29,119 bases of DNA, from the IMG/VR virus record IMGVR_UViG_3300037587_000130, positions 1 through 29,119 of that record, one strand, 5' to 3'. Origin of the DNA: a virus. A program made the translations under genes and the position numbers. The notes beneath the pieces were generated by a model. That model made no database searches. It had not been told where the DNA came from and saw nothing but the letters and a program-made list of their open reading frames with translations. Numbering within the stretch: the first letter of the stretch is position 1; every line of letters begins with the position of its first letter. This document shows, in pieces, positions 44-20,291 of this stretch.

Positions 44-72
44 CACTTATGGAGCGTTGACGAAGTCGTCAA
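44..72 (-). promoter_or_regulatory. Leftward TTGACG promoter over a palindrome
   Basis: On the minus strand a perfect TTGACG -35 box (67-72) is followed after 17 bases by a weak TAAGTG -10 box (44-49). The -35 lies in the palindrome TTGACGAAGTCGTCAA (57-72), with 7-base arms and a 2-base centre. It starts 11 bases beyond the stop of the gene at 83-820 and would drive a gene left of the window. A plus-strand reading also has TTGACG with 17-base spacing but only TAACTA as -10. It belongs to the promoter family seen at 1225, 2631, 5982, 10031, 13882, 13894 and 15957. The -10 box is the weakest part of the call. Confidence 0.5.
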
Positions 73-82
73 TTAGAAGTAA

Positions 83-820
83 CTATCCCTTGAAAATACC
101 CAACCTACGAAGCTGAAACCGTAGCGCATCGGCATAGAACGCTGGAAGCATTCGGCTCGCTTCGGCAACGGCTGGCGTCAGCCATGGATTGCGAGGGATA
201 ACGACGGACTGGCTGGTCATATCATGCAGCATCTTGAGACGGGCACCTTTCGGCCAACCTCGCTTAAATCTGCGAGACCCGCCGACGACGCGGAAAATAC
301 CTTGTCGCTTACCTAAATCCAAAAAGACAACGCGCGAACCAGAAGTAACAGCGTCTTGGACTTTGAACAGTGTTTGCTGCTTACGATTACTGGCTCTGCG
401 TCCTTTGAATTTCCGTAACCGAATATTCATTAGCTTGTTAGCCTTACGAGGTAAGCGCGTTCGTGGCTGCTGTCCCTCCTGTCCTGCAGCGTACGACGTC
501 GGGATCGCTACCCCGTTTTTTCCGCCTTTGGTCTTCGTCGCTCCGAATTCCTGGTCTTCCATGTAATCGGCAATCGAACCCACAATGGCCTGCTGCCGTC
601 GGATATTCAGTTCCCGGCGTTCCTGCTGTACCTGGATGCTTTGTTCCGTAAACCTGTTACGCAGCGTCAAATCGTTCCTAACGTCCGCTTTGGCGATACG
701 TTGGGTAGCGAACGCCGTATCGTTCAACGTCTTGCGTGTGGCAAATGGGAGCGCCCTAGCGGCAAATTCAGATAGGTCCCGCTCTAACTTCTTAATGTTC
801 TTATCGTTGATCTGAAACAT
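83..820 (-). CDS. Basic phage protein, possibly a virion morphogenesis or tail protein
   Basis: This encodes 245 residues. The frame is open further upstream, but the start at 820 (protein begins MFQINDKN) is preceded by a strong GAGGTGG ribosome site 7 bases away, so it is preferred. The N-terminal part includes LPFATRKTLNDTAFATQ, a pattern I associate with phage minor structural proteins near tail-completion or morphogenesis genes. The middle is rich in Arg and Lys (for example RLRKFKGRRASNRKQ). There is no signal peptide or membrane segment. It is transcribed leftward, away from the AT-rich spacer at 821-1288, and a TTGACG promoter lies just past its stop. The structural role is a guess from sequence flavour; the gene itself is well supported by length and start signal. 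Confidence 0.72.
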   Translation of the reverse strand: MFQINDKNIKKLERDLSEFAARALPFATRKTLNDTAFATQRIAKADVRNDLTLRNRFTEQSIQVQQERRELNIRRQQAIVGSIADYMEDQEFGATKTKGGKNGVAIPTSYAAGQEGQQPRTRLPRKANKLMNIRLRKFKGRRASNRKQQTLFKVQDAVTSGSRVVFLDLGKRQGIFRVVGGSRRFKRGWPKGARLKMLHDMTSQSVVIPRNPWLTPAVAEASRMLPAFYADALRFQLRRLGIFKG

Positions 821-13944: not shown

Positions 13945-14892
13945 ATGACAAACTCCATTAGCTTAACCATCCCGCTAAACGACTATAACGCCCTAACCCG
14001 CGCCGCCGATATGTTGCACGGTTTGGCTGTCGATATGAAAAAGCAGGGCAACGCCCCGATTTGTTCGACCACTGAGGGACCGGGTCAAACCGTCGACGTA
14101 ACCGGTGTAGACCAGAACGGCGAACGCGTTGTCGAGACTGTAACCTTATCCACGGAGCCGAAAGTCGTACAGCTCCCCGGGAAAGTGGCCGACGTGCAAA
14201 TTATCGCGACTGTATCCGGGGAACCAACCGCCGCCCCAGCTCTCGAAACAATCGACCTCGAACCCTTGCGACAAGAAACAACCGCCGCCGAAGCGTTCCC
14301 AAACGTGGACCCGTCGACAATTGTTACCGTGACGCCGACGGTTGCTACTGTTACGCCATTCCCTGCATCTGTTGGCGTCGAACTGGATAAAAACGGTCTG
14401 CCTTGGGACGAACGAATCCACGCGGGTACCAAGTCGAAAAAGGCGGACGGATCCTGGAAGGCTAAGCGCGGAGTCGATAAGGACTTCGTAGCCCAGGTCG
14501 AAGCGGAACTCCGCGCCGCCATGGCTGTACCGACCCCAAACGAACAACCTGCCCCCGTTGTGGCTTCCCCTACGACAACGCCCGCCATCGCTCCGATTGT
14601 TGACGCGGTCCCAAACGTTGCGGCGACTGCGGCGGCGACGGTTACGCCACAAGCTGGGAGCCCTACCCCGAACGTCACCACCCCGACGGTGGCGGTTACG
14701 CCTGCATTACATGCAACGGCACCGGGCATCACCACACTCCCGGCACTAATGGCCGCTGCAACCGGTGCGGGTAAAACCCAGGCCGATATGCAAGCCGCCG
14801 CCGTTGCCGCTGGTCTCGCATCCGTAGCGCTGCTGGGCGCCCGTCCCGACCTTATCCCTACCGTCGCCGCTTCGCTCGGTCTAGGGGGTTAA
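13945..14892 (+). CDS. Ala/Pro/Thr-rich early protein with a GLPWDERI motif
   Basis: This encodes 315 residues and is the first gene of the rightward replication operon. The N-terminal 35 residues look helical (DYNALTRAADMLHGLAVDMKK). The middle has ELDKNGLPWDERIHAGTKSK (146-165) followed by SWKAKRGVD, then VAQVEAELRAAM. The rest is low-complexity Ala, Pro, Thr and Val sequence, probably disordered. The C-terminal 50 residues are helical and alanine-rich (GKTQADMQAAAVAAGLA). The GLPWDERI core recurs in the DNA polymerase C-terminus of this phage, and I recall similar motifs in other phage early proteins, function unknown to me. A scaffold or partner for the replication complex is plausible. 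An antisense frame of 216 codons in this gene is a shadow. Confidence 0.78.
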   Translation: MTNSISLTIPLNDYNALTRAADMLHGLAVDMKKQGNAPICSTTEGPGQTVDVTGVDQNGERVVETVTLSTEPKVVQLPGKVADVQIIATVSGEPTAAPALETIDLEPLRQETTAAEAFPNVDPSTIVTVTPTVATVTPFPASVGVELDKNGLPWDERIHAGTKSKKADGSWKAKRGVDKDFVAQVEAELRAAMAVPTPNEQPAPVVASPTTTPAIAPIVDAVPNVAATAAATVTPQAGSPTPNVTTPTVAVTPALHATAPGITTLPALMAAATGAGKTQADMQAAAVAAGLASVALLGARPDLIPTVAASLGLGG

Positions 14893-14893
14893 T

Positions 14894-16057
14894 ATGTCCC
14901 TTCATTCCATTATCGCGCCGTCGTCGGCTGGTATATGGGGTAAGCCGGACGGCTGTACCGGTTATGTCTTAATGGCGCAACTGTACCCCGAAACAGAAGA
15001 AACGCCCGAAGCGGCTGAAGGATCCGCTTCCCATTGGGTCGGCGCCGATACGTTGCTATCGTATGGGCCCGACGAGGATTTTAAACTCTGCGCCGATTAC
15101 GTCGGCAAGGTATGTCCGGAAAACGGCGTCGTAATTACCGAAGAAATGACCGACGGTGCGTCGCTATATGTGGGTAACGTCCTCAAGCTCTGCCAGGAGC
15201 GCGGACTACTGGGCGCCCTGCAGATCGAACAGCGGCTCGAAATGCCCGCGATTCACGAGTTAGCGTTCGGTACGTCGGACTGCTGGATATATGACTCCAA
15301 AGCCCACGAGCTATTCGCTTGGGATTATAAGTTCGGATTCGAAGCAGTCGAAGCGTTCGAGAATTGGCAAACGCTTATGTACCTGGACGGTATCGTCGAT
15401 AAGCTCGGTTTTAAAGGTACCCACGACCAGGACCTTAAAATTACGTTACGGATAGTCCAGCCCCGGGCGTTCCATCGCGACGGACCTATCCGGGAGTGGA
15501 AAACCACCGGCGGGGCGCTGCGGGGGTATACGAATATCCTACACGCTAACGCCCACACGGCATTGGGTCCGGACGCGGTCTGTAACACGGGCTCGCACTG
15601 TAAGAACTGCTCTGCGCGTACCAACTGCGAAGCGGCCATTACAGCCGGTGCCCGACTGTTCGAAGCGGCCAGCGCTCCGGCACCCGTGGACATATCGACG
15701 GCAGCCTTAGCGACCCAGGCGACGCTAGTAACCCGGGCGTATAAGCATCTTAAGGCGCTTAAAATCGGCTACGACTCCCAGATCGAAGGGAAGGTCCGCG
15801 CCGGTGAAATAGTGCCAGGCTGGACCACGGAAGCAACGTTCGGCCGCGAGAAATGGGACAAGCCTATCGCGGAAGTTATCGCTATGGGCGATATGATGGG
15901 TAAGGACCTGCGGAAGCTGGAAGCAATCACCCCCAAAGCGGCTGTTAAATCAGGTATTGACGAAGCCGTCATTAAGGCATATTCTACACAACCACGAACC
16001 GGGGTAAAAGTTACCCAGGACAACGGAACCAAAGCCAAACAGGTATTTACGATATGA
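14894..16057 (+). CDS. DUF2800-type RecB/Cas4-like nuclease
   Basis: This encodes 387 residues from ATG 14894 after AGGGGG. The opening SLHSIIAPSSAGIWGKPDGC and EGSASHWVGAD match the DUF2800 phage family. Residues 143-146 WDYK, with the preceding acidic residues and the helix ENWQTLMYLDG, form a PD-(D/E)XK-type core. C230, C236, C239 and C245 form a cluster that in Cas4/AddB-like nucleases holds iron-sulphur. The C-terminal part is a helical domain with GWTTEATFGREKW. It probably acts as an exonuclease in recombination or DNA processing, paired with the adjacent ssDNA-binding protein. Its stop overlaps the next start as ATGA, and its 3' end contains a promoter-like sequence at 15957-15985. 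Confidence 0.86.
   Translation: MSLHSIIAPSSAGIWGKPDGCTGYVLMAQLYPETEETPEAAEGSASHWVGADTLLSYGPDEDFKLCADYVGKVCPENGVVITEEMTDGASLYVGNVLKLCQERGLLGALQIEQRLEMPAIHELAFGTSDCWIYDSKAHELFAWDYKFGFEAVEAFENWQTLMYLDGIVDKLGFKGTHDQDLKITLRIVQPRAFHRDGPIREWKTTGGALRGYTNILHANAHTALGPDAVCNTGSHCKNCSARTNCEAAITAGARLFEAASAPAPVDISTAALATQATLVTRAYKHLKALKIGYDSQIEGKVRAGEIVPGWTTEATFGREKWDKPIAEVIAMGDMMGKDLRKLEAITPKAAVKSGIDEAVIKAYSTQPRTGVKVTQDNGTKAKQVFTI
15957..15985 (+). promoter_or_regulatory. Internal promoter of the early family, within the DUF2800 gene
   Basis: TTGACG (15957-15962), a 17-base spacer and TATTCT (15980-15985). The spacer AAGCCGTCATTAAGGCA repeats the core CCGTCATTA-n-GGC seen in the leftward promoters, so the match goes beyond -35/-10 boxes. 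It lies inside codons for IDEAVIKAYS and would give a transcript starting near 15992, about 60 bases before the ssDNA-binding protein gene. Extra transcription of that gene would fit its need for high amounts. Confidence 0.6.
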
Positions 16058-16902
16058 GTAATACACCCTACGTTGAAGTAATGATCACCGGTCGCGTTGT
16101 TAACGGCCACCCTATGGCACGGCGACCCGTGACATTCAAACACCCCGAAACGCGGCTCGATGTACCGCTGATGGATAAAGTAACGGGGTTGCAGGTTACC
16201 GATAGCTACTTCGCGGTAGCCGTACCCAAGGCCGGGGAAACCCATTGGAATCAAACCCCATGGGGTAAGCAAATCCACGATAAAGCCGTCCAGGACTGGC
16301 CAGCCGGGGAGTATGGTGCTGCAGATTTTTCCTGGAAAATTATCGACGGGGATAGCCAGGTCCCGAACAAGAAAGGTAAGAAACCAGCGGATCGGGAAGG
16401 TTGGGCGGGTCATTGGGTTGTGCAGTGTAATACCCGCTTCGCGGTCAAGTGCTACCACGTTGGGAAATATGAACCTATCCAGCAAATTGCCGACGAAAAG
16501 GAAATTAAAACGGGCGATTATTGCCGGGCATTACTGGGAGTTCGGGGTAACGGTCCGACCGAATCGCCAGGCGTTTACATTAACCCCGATAAGTTCGAAT
16601 TGGCCCGTGCTGGCGTCCCGATCGTTTCCGATAGTGGTACCAGCGCTGCGGACGCATTCGGCGGCGGTGCAGCCACAACGGCCGCAGTGGTACAGCAACC
16701 GGCCGCAGTGGTACAGCAACCGGCCGCAGTGGTACAGCCGGCGCCAGACCTGTTAATCCCGCAACCTGGGAACGCTCCGGCCGCGCCAGTGGTACCGGTC
16801 GAAGTTAAGTACCTGGACGGCAACGGTAACCCGTTTACCGAAGCGCAACTCCTGGCCGCCGGTATCACTGCGGAACAAATCGCAGCAATGCCCCGCGCTT
16901 AA
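16054..16902 (+). CDS. Single-stranded DNA-binding protein (DUF2815-like)
   Basis: This encodes 282 residues from an ATG overlapping the upstream stop as ATGA. The first 185 residues form the conserved part, with VTFKHPETRLDVPLMD near the start and a closing GDYCRALLGVRGNG...PGVYINPDKFELAR, as in DUF2815-type phage ssDNA-binding proteins (OB fold). A linker of Ala, Val, Gln and Pro follows with three copies of AAVVQQP. The C-terminal 30 residues (GNPFTEAQLLAAGITAEQI) form a short helical tip, perhaps for partner binding, as SSB tails do. It should coat single-stranded DNA made by the helicases and the DUF2800 nuclease. A promoter within the preceding gene may boost it. Confidence 0.85.
   Translation: MSNTPYVEVMITGRVVNGHPMARRPVTFKHPETRLDVPLMDKVTGLQVTDSYFAVAVPKAGETHWNQTPWGKQIHDKAVQDWPAGEYGAADFSWKIIDGDSQVPNKKGKKPADREGWAGHWVVQCNTRFAVKCYHVGKYEPIQQIADEKEIKTGDYCRALLGVRGNGPTESPGVYINPDKFELARAGVPIVSDSGTSAADAFGGGAATTAAVVQQPAAVVQQPAAVVQPAPDLLIPQPGNAPAAPVVPVEVKYLDGNGNPFTEAQLLAAGITAEQIAAMPRA
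16681..16740. repeat. 21-base tandem repeat, 2.9 copies, in the ssDNA-binding protein linker
   Basis: The unit begins GCCGCAGTGGTACAGCAACC and is repeated from 16681, 16702 and 16723, the last copy being truncated. It encodes AAVVQQP repeats in frame, so copy-number change alters linker length by 7 residues without a frameshift. The copies are nearly identical, suggesting recent slippage. Confidence 0.85.
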
Positions 16903-16904
16903 CC

Positions 16905-16932
16905 AACCCACCCGACGGGGGCTTCGGCTCCC
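16905..16932 (+). terminator. UUCG hairpin after the ssDNA-binding protein gene
   Basis: The stem GGGGGC (16917-16922) pairs with GCTCCC (16927-16932), with one G-U pair, around a TTCG loop. It begins shortly after the stop at 16902. There is no T run downstream (TCATAT follows), so it may be a weak terminator or an RNA end-protector rather than a full stop. Sequence and hairpin are copied almost exactly at 17271-17298. Confidence 0.5.
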
Positions 16933-16953
16933 TCATATAACGAAGGTATCATC

Positions 16954-17271
16954 ATGTATCCTGTAATCGATGAAAAATATCTAATAACCACCGACAATTG
17001 GTTCGTCGCTCCAGACGGTGAACAATACAAGGCCATTTTTGGGACAGTATCCGCCGTGCTTAACGATGAAGAAACACTGGGTGTAAAGACTAATCGCGGC
17101 AGTTCAAATTGGTTCGTGACTATCGGTAATATGATTGTTGCTGGTTGCCAGATCCACTATTGCATCCAGACCGACGAAGTTAATCATGCGGCGGTGGATC
17201 AGGAGTTTCAACACGAGGGGGAGTTGATAGTCCAGCGAGAAAACAAGAGTCGCATTTATATTGCTGACTAA
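16954..17271 (+). CDS. Small conserved-looking phage protein, 105 aa
   Basis: ATG 16954 follows AAGG at good spacing. The protein opens MYPVIDEKYLITTDNWFVAP, then DGEQYKAIFGTVSAV, a pattern I associate with a small phage protein family of unknown function. It is beta-rich, with late SNWFVTIGNMIVAGCQIHY. It is flanked on both sides by nearly identical UUCG hairpins, so it may be expressed at a level separate from its neighbours. Codons are somewhat A/T-richer than those of the DUF2800 gene. Confidence 0.75.
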   Translation: MYPVIDEKYLITTDNWFVAPDGEQYKAIFGTVSAVLNDEETLGVKTNRGSSNWFVTIGNMIVAGCQIHYCIQTDEVNHAAVDQEFQHEGELIVQRENKSRIYIAD

Positions 17272-17307
17272 ACCCACCCGACGAGGGCTTCGGCCCCCGT
17301 TTCTTCC
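17271..17307 (+). terminator. Second UUCG hairpin, terminator-like
   Basis: ACG-A-GGGC (17281-17288) pairs with GCCC-C-CGT (17293-17300) around TTCG, with one mismatch, and TTTCTTCC follows. The U-rich tail makes this a better terminator candidate than the copy at 16905. The repeat starts at the last base of the stop codon of the 105-residue gene (AACCCACCCGACG). The operon must be read through at least in part, since the genes downstream are coupled and have no obvious promoter. Confidence 0.58.
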
Positions 17308-17320
17308 TGCAGGTTCCGAT

Positions 17321-17536
17321 ATGCACTTCTCGAAAGTCAAAGGGAAACAAATTTTAGACCTTCGCGGCGATTTCATTCTTAGCAGACGCGACGAACTCGT
17401 TACAGCCGTGGCGCCCAGTGCCGCCCCTAAACGCGTCCTGTTCGCTCGTTATATCCCGGCTATCCACAGGCTCGGGTTCATGGGCAAACTGCGCGCCACC
17501 GGCCAGGCTATCGCGTTTATCTGGGGGCGGGTATGA
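17321..17536 (+). CDS. Hypothetical protein, 71 aa
   Basis: I do not recognise this protein. The frame is open from 17261, but that part runs through the hairpin. The ATG at 17321 has AGG nearby and gives MHFSKVKGKQILDLRGDF. The product is basic, with a hydrophobic C-terminal part (VLFARYIPAIHRLGFMG and ATGQAIAFIWGRV). Its stop overlaps the next ATG as ATGA. Confidence 0.6.
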   Translation: MHFSKVKGKQILDLRGDFILSRRDELVTAVAPSAAPKRVLFARYIPAIHRLGFMGKLRATGQAIAFIWGRV

Positions 17537-18138
17537 AGCTGTCAACGAACTATAAGCCCAAAAAATCGGAAGCGTATAACACCCTATACAACGCCAGAAA
17601 AGAGGGTCGCCAATTAGAACAGATTGAATTGGACATGCTTTTAAATTATTTTGCACCCGCCAGAACGAAGAACCCGAAGACACCCGAAGAATGGGTCGCT
17701 AAGGCATGTGGTATTAAAGATGTACGGTATTATCTGAATTATCTTTACGTAGTTGATGGTATTTGTTATGGGACGGATGGGCACAGGCTTCATTGGTGCG
17801 AAACTGAATTCGACGACGGATATTACGACCCTGTGATGTTATTGCCCACGGAATGCGATAGACGATACCCCGACGTAAAAAGAGTTATTCCCGACAAGCT
17901 TAGTGGTTTCGATCATGTTGTAGGCGGGGAAATAGCCGGAGTAAACCCCGAAAGTAAAACCAAAGTCGTTCATTTTGTAGTGCTTGAACATGGCGGTAAT
18001 TTCGACCGTAAATACTGGGAACAAGCGGTCGCAAATGACGATTCCGCTACATATTCGGTTGAGTGTGGTGGCCCATGGTCGAGAGTTCGTGGACGTAATA
18101 AATTCGGTCAGTTCGTAATCTCGGGGATCAGAGTATGA
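17533..18138 (+). CDS. Beta-clamp-like protein with DnaN signature motifs
   Basis: This encodes 201 residues from an ATG overlapping the previous stop (ATGA); its own stop overlaps the polymerase start the same way. Three motifs match the second and third domains of bacterial DnaN in order: DVRYYLN (63-69; identical in E. coli DnaN as I recall it), TDGHRL (81-86; from VATDGHRLA), and YPDVKRVIP (112-120; compare FPDYRRVLP). The rest is unlike DnaN, and the length fits about one clamp domain plus an N-terminal helical extension. It may be a minimal sliding-clamp-like processivity factor working as an oligomer, or a mimic that binds the host clamp loader or polymerase. Direct coupling to the polymerase gene supports a replication role. 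Confidence 0.68.
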   Translation: MKLSTNYKPKKSEAYNTLYNARKEGRQLEQIELDMLLNYFAPARTKNPKTPEEWVAKACGIKDVRYYLNYLYVVDGICYGTDGHRLHWCETEFDDGYYDPVMLLPTECDRRYPDVKRVIPDKLSGFDHVVGGEIAGVNPESKTKVVHFVVLEHGGNFDRKYWEQAVANDDSATYSVECGGPWSRVRGRNKFGQFVISGIRV

Positions 18139-20291
18139 TTCGCGGGCGTCGTAAGTGCGACCCGATTAACGGGTGCGGTAAATTCTATAAACAGGAGCTT
18201 ACCGCATGTTCCCATTGCGGCGCCCCGGACTGGGCTAGCGAGCTGGTACCATTTAACCCGCTCGACTGGATATACGACGAAGAAAACTACCCGAATATTT
18301 TTACCTGCTCATTCAAACACCCGAACAGCGGTACACGCTTATTTTTCGAAGTGAGCCCCCGCCGCAACGATCTGCGCGACTTTGTGGTTTTCCTGCACTC
18401 ATTGAAGGGCGCCGGGTCGCGGCTGGTCGGATTTAACAACGTTGGGTATGATTACCCGGTCCTACATTTTATAATTGACAATTATCACCACGGGCTAACT
18501 ATCGACGATATACACGGTAAGTCCGCGGCGATAATCGCGACCCCCTGGGAACGCCGGTTCGATAACGTCGTCTGGGATAGCGACGTCCACATCCAACAAA
18601 TCGACCTGTTTAAAATCCACCACTTCGACAACGAAGCCCGCCGCACTTCTTTAAAAATGCTCGAATTTAACATGCGGTCCCAGAATATCCAGGACTTACC
18701 GTTCGAACCAGGCGTCCCGCTTACGCTTGAGCAAATGCCGGGGCTCTGCAAATACAACGACCACGACGTCGACGAAACCGAAAAATTTTATATTGAATCT
18801 ATCGAAATGATAGAGTTTCGCGAGGACCTGGGCGCGAAATACGGTAAGAACTTTTTAAACCATAGCGATAAAAAAATCGGGACCGAGCTTTTCGTTATGG
18901 AACTGGAAAAAGCTAACCCGGGCTGCTGCTATCGAAAAGGTCCCGAAGGTCGCATTACGCAACAAACGCCCCGCGCGGTTATTAATATCGGCGAAGTTAT
19001 TTTCCCGTATATCAGTTTTGAACGGTCCGAATTTAACCGCGTTAAAAACTGGCTCGCTGCCCAGGTTATTACCGAAACGAAAGGGGTGTTTACTGGGTTA
19101 CACGCGGACATTGACGGCTTTAAATTCGACTTCGGTACGGGCGGGATACACGGGTCGATTGATTCGACGATAGTTTATACCGACGACGAACACGTTATCT
19201 ACGACTGGGACGTCGCCGGATTCTATCCCAGCCTGGGCGCTGCTAATAACCTGTTCCCGGAACATTTAAGTAGCCAGTTCGGCGTAGTGGATGCAATGCT
19301 TAAAGAAGAACGGGCGAATTATGAAAAAGGGACCCCGTTAAATACGGCGATTAAGTTAGCCAGAAACGGTGCGTACGGGGACAGCAACAATAAATATAGC
19401 CCGTTTTACGACCCTCAATATACTATGTCGATTACGATTAACGGTCAGCTTTTATTATGTATGTTAGCGGAGCAACTGTTAAAAATTCCCGGCTTATCGA
19501 TGATCCAGGCGAACACGGACGGTATTACCGTTAAATGCCCCCGTGGCTATATCGACCACATGAAAGCCGTTTGTAAGTGGTGGGAGTCGTTTACGTGTTT
19601 GGAACTCGAAAGCGTTATCTATTCGCGAATGTTTATTCGGGACGTTAATAACTATATCGGCGAATACGACGGTGGGGGCGTTAAACGTAAAGGCGCCTAC
19701 GAATATAAAATGGGTTGGCATCAAAACCACGGGCAGCTAGTTGTAGCCATGGCGGCCGAAGCGGCGCTCGTGCGAGGTGAAGATATCGCGGACTTCATCC
19801 GGAACCACGACAACATTTTCGACTTTATGCTCCGTACGAAAGTCGGACGGGCGGACCAGCTCGTTATATCCGACGCGTCCGGTAACGAACGCCAGCTCCA
19901 AAAAATCAGCCGGTACTATATCGGCATCGACGGCGGCGCGTTGACCAAAATCAGCCCACCCGCTAAGGGTAACGTCGTCGGGTCCTGGAAGCGCGCCACG
20001 AAGTTAACCGACCAGTTTTATAAAGATACTATCGGCGATTTAACCATGGCAGCGTTATCCGGCGACTTCGCAGCAATACCACCGCACGAGCTGGACGCCA
20101 ACGGCTTACCGTGGGACGAACGGATTAACACGAAGAACCGATCGAAGTACGAAATACGGCGTACTGGGCTTAACGTGGGGCGCCTGGTTGCACCCTGTAA
20201 CGATATCCGCGACGCGGACCGGGATAACATCGACTTCGACTACTATATCGCCGAAGCCCGTAAACTGGTCGATCCATTGAGAGGTGTTTAA
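18135..20291 (+). CDS. Family B-like DNA polymerase with proofreading exonuclease
   Basis: This encodes 718 residues from an ATG overlapping the clamp-like gene's stop as ATGA. An N-terminal zinc ribbon has C8, C14, C25 and C28. The 3'-5' exonuclease shows YDEENYPNIF (D48, E50), GFNNVGYDYP (N102, D106) and YNDHD (Y207, D211). Polymerase motif A is WDVAGFYPSLG (D359), motif B is KLARNGAYGD (K407, Y414) and motif C is QANTDGITV. In motif C the usual first Asp of DTD is Asn460, keeping D462. The C-terminus carries ELDANGLPWDERINTKNRSK (652-671), shared with the protein encoded at 13945-14892. It is the phage replicative polymerase, working with the primase-helicase and ssDNA-binding protein. At 718 residues it is compact for family B. 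Confidence 0.93.
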   Translation: MIRGRRKCDPINGCGKFYKQELTACSHCGAPDWASELVPFNPLDWIYDEENYPNIFTCSFKHPNSGTRLFFEVSPRRNDLRDFVVFLHSLKGAGSRLVGFNNVGYDYPVLHFIIDNYHHGLTIDDIHGKSAAIIATPWERRFDNVVWDSDVHIQQIDLFKIHHFDNEARRTSLKMLEFNMRSQNIQDLPFEPGVPLTLEQMPGLCKYNDHDVDETEKFYIESIEMIEFREDLGAKYGKNFLNHSDKKIGTELFVMELEKANPGCCYRKGPEGRITQQTPRAVINIGEVIFPYISFERSEFNRVKNWLAAQVITETKGVFTGLHADIDGFKFDFGTGGIHGSIDSTIVYTDDEHVIYDWDVAGFYPSLGAANNLFPEHLSSQFGVVDAMLKEERANYEKGTPLNTAIKLARNGAYGDSNNKYSPFYDPQYTMSITINGQLLLCMLAEQLLKIPGLSMIQANTDGITVKCPRGYIDHMKAVCKWWESFTCLELESVIYSRMFIRDVNNYIGEYDGGGVKRKGAYEYKMGWHQNHGQLVVAMAAEAALVRGEDIADFIRNHDNIFDFMLRTKVGRADQLVISDASGNERQLQKISRYYIGIDGGALTKISPPAKGNVVGSWKRATKLTDQFYKDTIGDLTMAALSGDFAAIPPHELDANGLPWDERINTKNRSKYEIRRTGLNVGRLVAPCNDIRDADRDNIDFDYYIAEARKLVDPLRGV

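Follow-up and report, generated by a model that had tools for sequence, protein, structure and literature searches.

A short phage protein encoded beside a DNA polymerase appears to keep the client-peptide pocket of DnaN without its ring

What is left for a sliding clamp to do when most of the parts that close around DNA appear to be gone? The question is raised by a 29,119-nucleotide stretch of viral DNA (IMG/VR record IMGVR_UViG_3300037587_000130, hereafter the window), in which a 201-residue protein resembling the beta clamp DnaN is encoded among replication genes and directly ahead of a DNA polymerase (Table 1). The first-pass annotation had described a beta-clamp-like protein coupled to the phage polymerase, and had offered an oligomeric processivity factor or a decoy for the host clamp as its possible roles. 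The protein, here called the mini-clamp, is very probably derived from DnaN, with the pocket retained and without a DnaN-type ring; its use by the phage can be argued more tentatively. To describe it we divide DnaN into six half-domains, 1a-1b-2a-2b-3a-3b, labels that are our own.

Table 1. Features of the mini-clamp locus in window coordinates
Feature	Position	Strand	Remarks
Exonuclease	14894-16057	+	shared operon
Gp2.5-like ssDNA-binding protein	16054-16902	+	shared operon
105-aa ORF	16954-17271	+	shared operon
91-aa ORF	17261-17536	+	shared operon
Mini-clamp ORF	17533-18138 (incl. stop)	+	ATG start, 201 aa
ATGA overlap, mini-clamp start / upstream 91-aa ORF stop	17533-17536	+	
N-terminal arm, residues 1-49	17533-17679	+	two predicted helices (11-24, 30-40); outside DnaN 136-366 match
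Half-domain like DnaN 2a (~residues 136-185)	17680-17826	+	DVRYYLN 17719-17739, TDGHRL 17773-17790
YPDVKRVIP, residues 112-120	17866-17892	+	matches DnaN domain II/III linker; subsite I P113, R117, V118
Half-domain like DnaN 3b (~residues 316-366)	17995-18135	+	FDRKYW (D158, Y161), C-terminal VISGIRV
ATGA overlap, mini-clamp stop / polymerase ORF start	18135-18138	+	polymerase ATG at 18135
Family B DNA polymerase, 718 aa	18135-20291	+	phrog_1252 E 1e-192

The operon runs in the order exonuclease, Gp2.5-like SSB, 105-aa ORF, 91-aa ORF, mini-clamp and polymerase B, its upstream part spanning 14894..17536 on the plus strand. The mini-clamp gene is overlapped by ATGA at both ends; the overlap with the polymerase start (18135) was correctly recorded before, and the one on the upstream side is new. 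The motif ELDxNGLPWDERI occurs twice in the window, in a 315-aa ORF (13945-14892) and near the C-terminus of the polymerase (18135-20291).

Searched as a single sequence, the window protein matches DnaN weakly (best E 0.033) but neither a Pfam family up to E 1 nor the NCBIfam dnan model, which four of seven family members match below cut-off. Among PHROG families it matches phrog_3007 (E 9.6e-8, the best stretch covering residues 61-93 only), also phrog_6615, and phrog_947, a 'processivity factor', at 0.12. A relation to anti-phage defence was checked with PADLOC, which gave no match for seven members. A profile of eight window-type proteins, searched against the PDB at E up to 1, returns beta clamps in 33 of its 34 matches (best E 1.5e-10), the remaining one being LolA at E 0.81. 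Its best match places residues 53-96 on DnaN 145-192 and residues 106-200 on DnaN 241-373, and this second block has to gap most of 3a. The alignment thus consists of two collinear stretches, 2a and linker-3b, and the three proposed DnaN landmarks, DVRYYLN (residues 63-69), TDGHRL (81-86) and YPDVKRVIP (112-120), all fall in the expected order within one DnaN chain. A fourth landmark, which the earlier reading did not include, is the DnaN C-terminus, ...FVISGIRV in the window protein, FVIMPMRK or AVMSMRV in relatives and VVMPMRL in E. coli. The profile of a sister group, typified by a protein of phage EP23, matches beta clamps in 39 of 39 PDB matches (best 5.8e-20).

The predicted fold agrees with the profiles. 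An AlphaFold2 monomer of the window protein, built on 16 sequences (pLDDT 87.1, pTM 0.83), matched beta clamps rather than an unrelated fold: these account for 50/50 of the matches listed by Foldseek (best E 5.9e-5) and likewise 50/50 of those listed by VIA-align, the best of the latter being E. coli 3q4j_E (Z 13.9, rmsd 2.7 Å, 146 residues aligned, model 49..200 on chain 136..365). The model of the EP23 protein (L142; pLDDT 92.8) superposes on E. coli 7azk_B with Z 13.1 and rmsd 3.0 over 158/169 residues (130..366). Given that both models superpose across these ranges, a single body of about 150 residues would cover the junction of DnaN domains II and III in both types. Neither gp45 nor PCNA appears among the 50 matches listed for the window model, and what is retained corresponds to halves of DnaN II and III. 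A library of viral structures yields 17 matches at E 0.001 or better, among them several of 178-250 aa and some named beta or processivity factor; the third-ranked Foldseek match is a 217-aa protein of Sam46, identified as gp53 from its matching name.

The family nevertheless carries a conflicting label in phrog_3007, 'RusA-like Holliday junction resolvase', at odds with the DnaN matches of the EP23-type profile (39/39 in the PDB). This label is unlikely to be right for the family; RusA is absent among the matches listed for the profile and structure searches, an absence that does not by itself exclude it. Within an L176 protein the matches to phrog_12598 and phrog_3007 share one stretch.

Judged from sequence and model, the window protein combines the leading half of domain II with the trailing half of domain III, an FPDxxRVIP linker connecting the two. 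The earlier description of about one clamp domain plus an extension must accordingly be replaced by halves of domains II and III, one from each, set around a pocket and preceded by a new N-terminal helical arm. Window-type members keep 2a, the II/III linker motif and 3b, and the sister group keeps 2a, 2b and 3b. Domain I is missing, only about 49 residues standing ahead of the 2a match, and the whole protein of 201 aa is, as had been noted, too short for a subunit of three domains (about 370 aa). The window type also lacks the second half of domain II, and the spacing between motifs differs from that of DnaN: T172 to P242 in E. coli is 70 residues and T81 to P113 in the window protein 32, while V247 to N320 is 73 residues and its window equivalent 40. 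The dimer-interface half-domain 3a (I272/L273) is missing as well, its region being mostly uncovered in the window-type alignment; columns 272 and 273 are identical in 2/9 window-type relatives, which we judge to be spurious placement, and 0/21 EP23-type members have a residue there. The arm carries a motif, L..YF.P..PKK, conserved in free-standing relatives and absent from the forms found in Vibrio phage CKB-S1 and in VP16C. Compared with DnaN (PF00712, PF02767, PF02768; TIGR00663), the window protein is therefore homologous over 2a, linker and 3b, shares the fold (Z 13.9) and keeps pocket residues, but differs in its length (201 aa against 366), in lacking domain I, 3a and any Pfam match, and in its extra N-terminal helical arm.

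On this assignment the lost domain I and 3a are the parts that supply most of the ring and both sides of the dimer interface, and the kept halves of domains II and III are those that together build the groove in which the QLxLF-type peptides of clients dock. This bears directly on the proposal of a ring assembled from several subunits, each the size of a single domain, as processivity factor of the polymerase. Mini-clamps do adjoin or fuse with polymerases, and Sam46 gp53 (217 aa, matched by name) is called a sliding clamp or processivity factor in passages of its published description (PMC8190038). Yet with both DnaN dimer-interface sides gone, and with a retained piece that straddles a domain boundary instead of forming a whole domain, an oligomeric clamp is improbable. 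The residues Q149, Y153 and Y154, which we take to be candidate DNA contacts of DnaN, point the same way, being kept in 0/9, 3/9 and 5/9 window-type relatives, respectively. The mini-clamp would fold as a compact monomer that does not encircle DNA.

The pocket itself appears to be under constraint. The pocket residues listed in passages of a review (PMC11139829) lie in 2a, the linker and 3b, and their numbering was checked on the E. coli DnaN sequence. Identity of the window protein to E. coli DnaN is 13/18 in the pocket and 22/135 at other positions (p 2.4e-6), that of nine window-type relatives 75 per cent in the pocket and 15 per cent elsewhere, and that of 21 EP23-type members 82 and 24 per cent (permutation 0/100,000 in both groups); the motifs serve as partial anchors of the alignment, and since the sequences are related these p-values are guides only. 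The nine derive from the 11 window-type rows of alignment A5, less the near-duplicate P0012 and the similar P0010, and the 21 from the 22 rows of alignment A6, less L166 (a partial match). By subsite, the window protein keeps 11/12 positions of subsite I, including R65, L68, T81, G83, H84, R85 and L86 in the 2a-like half, and only 3/8 of subsite II; the relative L090 keeps 11/12 and 7/8. The C-terminal VISGIRV of the 3b-like half contributes V195, S197, G198, I199 and R200. Two full-length control clamps keep the pocket too (14/18 and 9/17), so that its retention shows constraint and not a new role. It is probable that the mini-clamp binds clamp-binding peptides.

Among other rows pocket identity is 11/18 in Psymv2, 6/18 in VP16C and 4/18 in CKB-S1, the last two being fused forms of one small clade in which the pocket is largely lost. 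These forms keep the family match, although both stand in the profile's alignment, and might be read as showing that the whole family is a vestigial clamp domain that only stabilises or positions the polymerase, its pocket a relic. In free-standing members, however, the pocket is the best conserved part, as a relic would hardly be, and such a structural add-on is the least probable of the readings considered here. Loss of the pocket in the fused forms fits replacement of pocket docking by a covalent link, and fits loss of function equally well.

A pocket kept without its ring is also what a decoy would need, and the second of the proposed roles has to be weighed against this anatomy. A soluble copy of the clamp pocket would sequester host clients such as clamp-loader delta, Pol III alpha, Hda and MutL, and host replication would be shut down or reshaped while the phage used its own polymerase. 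Subsite I is the best-kept half in the window protein (11/12), and passages of the same review (PMC11139829) describe a preference of delta, about 50-fold, for a monomeric beta mutant over the dimer, with subsite I as the main site of binding; such a preference would suit a decoy. The gene is optional among close relatives, as genes for host takeover often are. Twort Gp168 and other phage clamp inhibitors would be comparable in acting on the host clamp system; Gp168, however, binds the DNA channel of the clamp (in passages of PMC11139829), whereas the mini-clamp resembles the clamp itself. Against a decoy stand the position of the gene inside a replication operon, its fusion to a polymerase in one clade where the pocket has decayed, and the many relatives in phages in which no polymerase gene was found, for which blocked clamp loading would be harmful if host Pol III is used. 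We consider the decoy unlikely overall, though optional presence, phages without a polymerase gene found and a strong subsite I do together favour some capture of host clients.

The distribution of the gene speaks to its tie with the polymerase. A tblastn search with the window protein reached six phage records, with a full-length match in one, Shewanella phage SppYZU01 (34.6 per cent), where the mini-clamp gene immediately precedes a family A polymerase. In SppYZU01, L087 and L088, whose flanking genes are shared with the window, the mini-clamp gene has the same place in the operon next to a family A polymerase, and in CKB-S1 the mini-clamp match forms the N-terminus of a single 950-aa family A polymerase. 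Exchange of the polymerase family beside the same mini-clamp, together with the CKB-S1 fusion, favours a role on the polymerase side. CKB-S1 and VP16C match the family profile at E 4e-36 and 1e-35, values obtained with a profile in whose building alignment both stand. CKB-S1 is the only clear fusion. In VP16C (L003) and VP_EVC_2013 (L006) the frame of the mini-clamp extends into the start of the polymerase, the rest of which lies in another frame; in VP16T (L205) the mini-clamp match, beside the start of the polymerase, is divided between two frames. These breaks may reflect either error or biology. Fusion as a general rule was rejected, as 8/8 related family A polymerase loci had no mini-clamp match better than E 3. 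At the position of the CKB-S1 mini-clamp, the family A polymerases of Vibrio phage 367.14 (L200) and Pseudoalteromonas phage PY6 (L201) carry another N-terminus (MKTIIAGSRG... and MKLIIAGGRT...), which we take to be SLOG-like.

The window polymerase (family B, phrog_1252), used as a query, gave 80 loci that were retained and whose ORFs were searched for mini-clamps. These were found in L008, L011, L012 and L014, directly downstream of polymerase B in the first three, the ones examined for gene order; L014 has the same score as L012 and is probably its duplicate. Only 5/80 polymerase-B loci have any mini-clamp within the flank examined, and none occurs in L027, L034 and L041, near relatives that share the operon and whose polymerase B is 73-81 per cent identical. 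A full-length clamp beside polymerase B was considered as an ancestor and set aside, since a DnaN profile found none in the 80 loci. Single-sequence scans of viral contigs yielded nothing from the window protein or from the N-termini of CKB-S1 and VP16C; alignment-based scans added L090, L091, L094, L095 and a Micavibrio MAG contig (L099). A composite query uncovered the sister group, whose named phages include EP23, Eta and Klebsiella 6991; it is present in 244 of 50,697 phage records (E 1e-5), and viral contigs supplied 306 relatives, 80 of which were retained. Among 33 mini-clamp records, which were chosen, some for carrying a polymerase, and several of which are fragments, phrog_1252 occurs in 5, PF00476 in 12, neither in 16 and a Pol III alpha match in 0. 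The Eta copy sits between a ParB-like gene and a helicase, and L094 and L095 have primase genes in the flank examined. Translational coupling to the polymerase thus stands for the window, where the genes overlap, and does not extend to relatives that occur without an adjacent polymerase gene; attachment as a rule is doubtful because the gene is missing from near relatives, is found in 5/80 loci and in 16/33 records has no polymerase for company. Sister-group members L160, L163, L164, L168 and L169 extend past the MPMR motif in C-terminal tails, with AAA or WALA as the last residues in several, and these may be docking tails.

A search of the polymerase C-terminus for a clamp-binding peptide had been proposed as a check. 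None was found at the C-terminus of the window polymerase, and its sole canonical match is an internal QIDLF (residues 155-159; 18597-18611). The form Q[ILV]DL[FYL] stands at this position in 87/87 aligned clade members, including loci in which no mini-clamp was found, so its presence irrespective of a neighbouring mini-clamp makes QIDLF no specific evidence; it fits the canonical motif in most clade members and may be a motif of the exonuclease domain or fold. The SppYZU01 polymerase has no canonical clamp-binding motif that we could find, and of nine other family A polymerases of mini-clamp phages a match is absent from seven, the remaining two having QARMI and QLRIL in one case and QIVMHL in the other. 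An N-terminal Cys-rich, zinc-ribbon-like stretch of the window polymerase (18135-18245) resembles residues ~440-480 of the SppYZU01 (L001) family A polymerase P0007; the match between the two ORFs as wholes has E 3e-6, and the Cys-rich stretch was read by eye as its cause.

Short phage proteins of this kind are already known as beta subunits. The phrog_3007 type (EP23 p08, 170 aa; Eta_0010, 179 aa; Klebsiella 6991, 178 aa) is, like the window protein, DnaN-derived, with the same motifs and without domain I and 3a, but has a whole domain II and no N-terminal arm; the usual annotation of its members is DNA polymerase III beta subunit or the questionable RusA-like. Full-length phage clamps, also found in replication modules, are long enough for three domains, unlike the mini-clamp: Alteromonas XX1924 (337 aa) is a three-domain DnaN relative by Pfam, and Burkholderia KL1 gp28 (386 aa) and phiAxp-1 gp63 (346 aa), the 2/3 that adjoin a polymerase, are beta subunits by annotation. 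Inspection of its translation shows KL1 gp28 to be the reverse of the mini-clamp, with the pocket motifs absent, and direct descent from a full-length clamp is for that reason not claimed. The KL1 clamp (L195:2680-3840) ends in DMDDDIPF, which in our view resembles the SSB tail motif. A survey of viral replicases may discuss short clamps. In print, AH2 gp20 (209 aa; PMC3483164) and the short beta-like ZCKp20p (PMC9901506) are each presented as a beta subunit, and the passages on these two and on Sam46 gp53 (PMC8190038) do not discuss missing domains or a pocket. Full-text searches, with most subscription journals outside their scope, found no description of a ring-less phage clamp, and within that literature the predicted anatomy of a pocket without a ring appears to be new.

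There is reason to think, then, that ring parts were dropped and the docking pocket kept, so that the mini-clamp may capture clamp partners without being a clamp. The reading that we place first, ahead of the decoy and, third, the oligomeric ring, is that of a clamp-derived docking module that would serve the phage replisome and, in the window, is probably attached to the polymerase; we give this reading close to an even chance, and the polymerase-attached role a slightly smaller one. In this lineage the mini-clamp would be made together with the polymerase through the overlapping genes, would probably be held on it, and would receive in its pocket clamp-binding peptides, either from a host replication protein or from that same polymerase. 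The poor subsite II of the window protein (3/8) counts against this docking module.

Short phage 'beta subunits' in hundreds of genomes have been taken as sliding clamps or labelled RusA-like. If they have retained the peptide pocket and lost the ring, a different biochemistry is predicted, in which clients are bound without DNA being held. The clamp pocket is an antibiotic target, and the mini-clamp would, if this is true, be a natural ring-less clamp-pocket reagent. More speculatively, phages may have split the jobs of the clamp, keeping the pocket free or attached to a polymerase and discarding the ring; widespread detached pockets might then redirect host clients (clamp loader, polymerases, Hda, MutL) to phage replication or off the host fork, and in one Vibrio lineage the module would have joined the polymerase and its pocket decayed.
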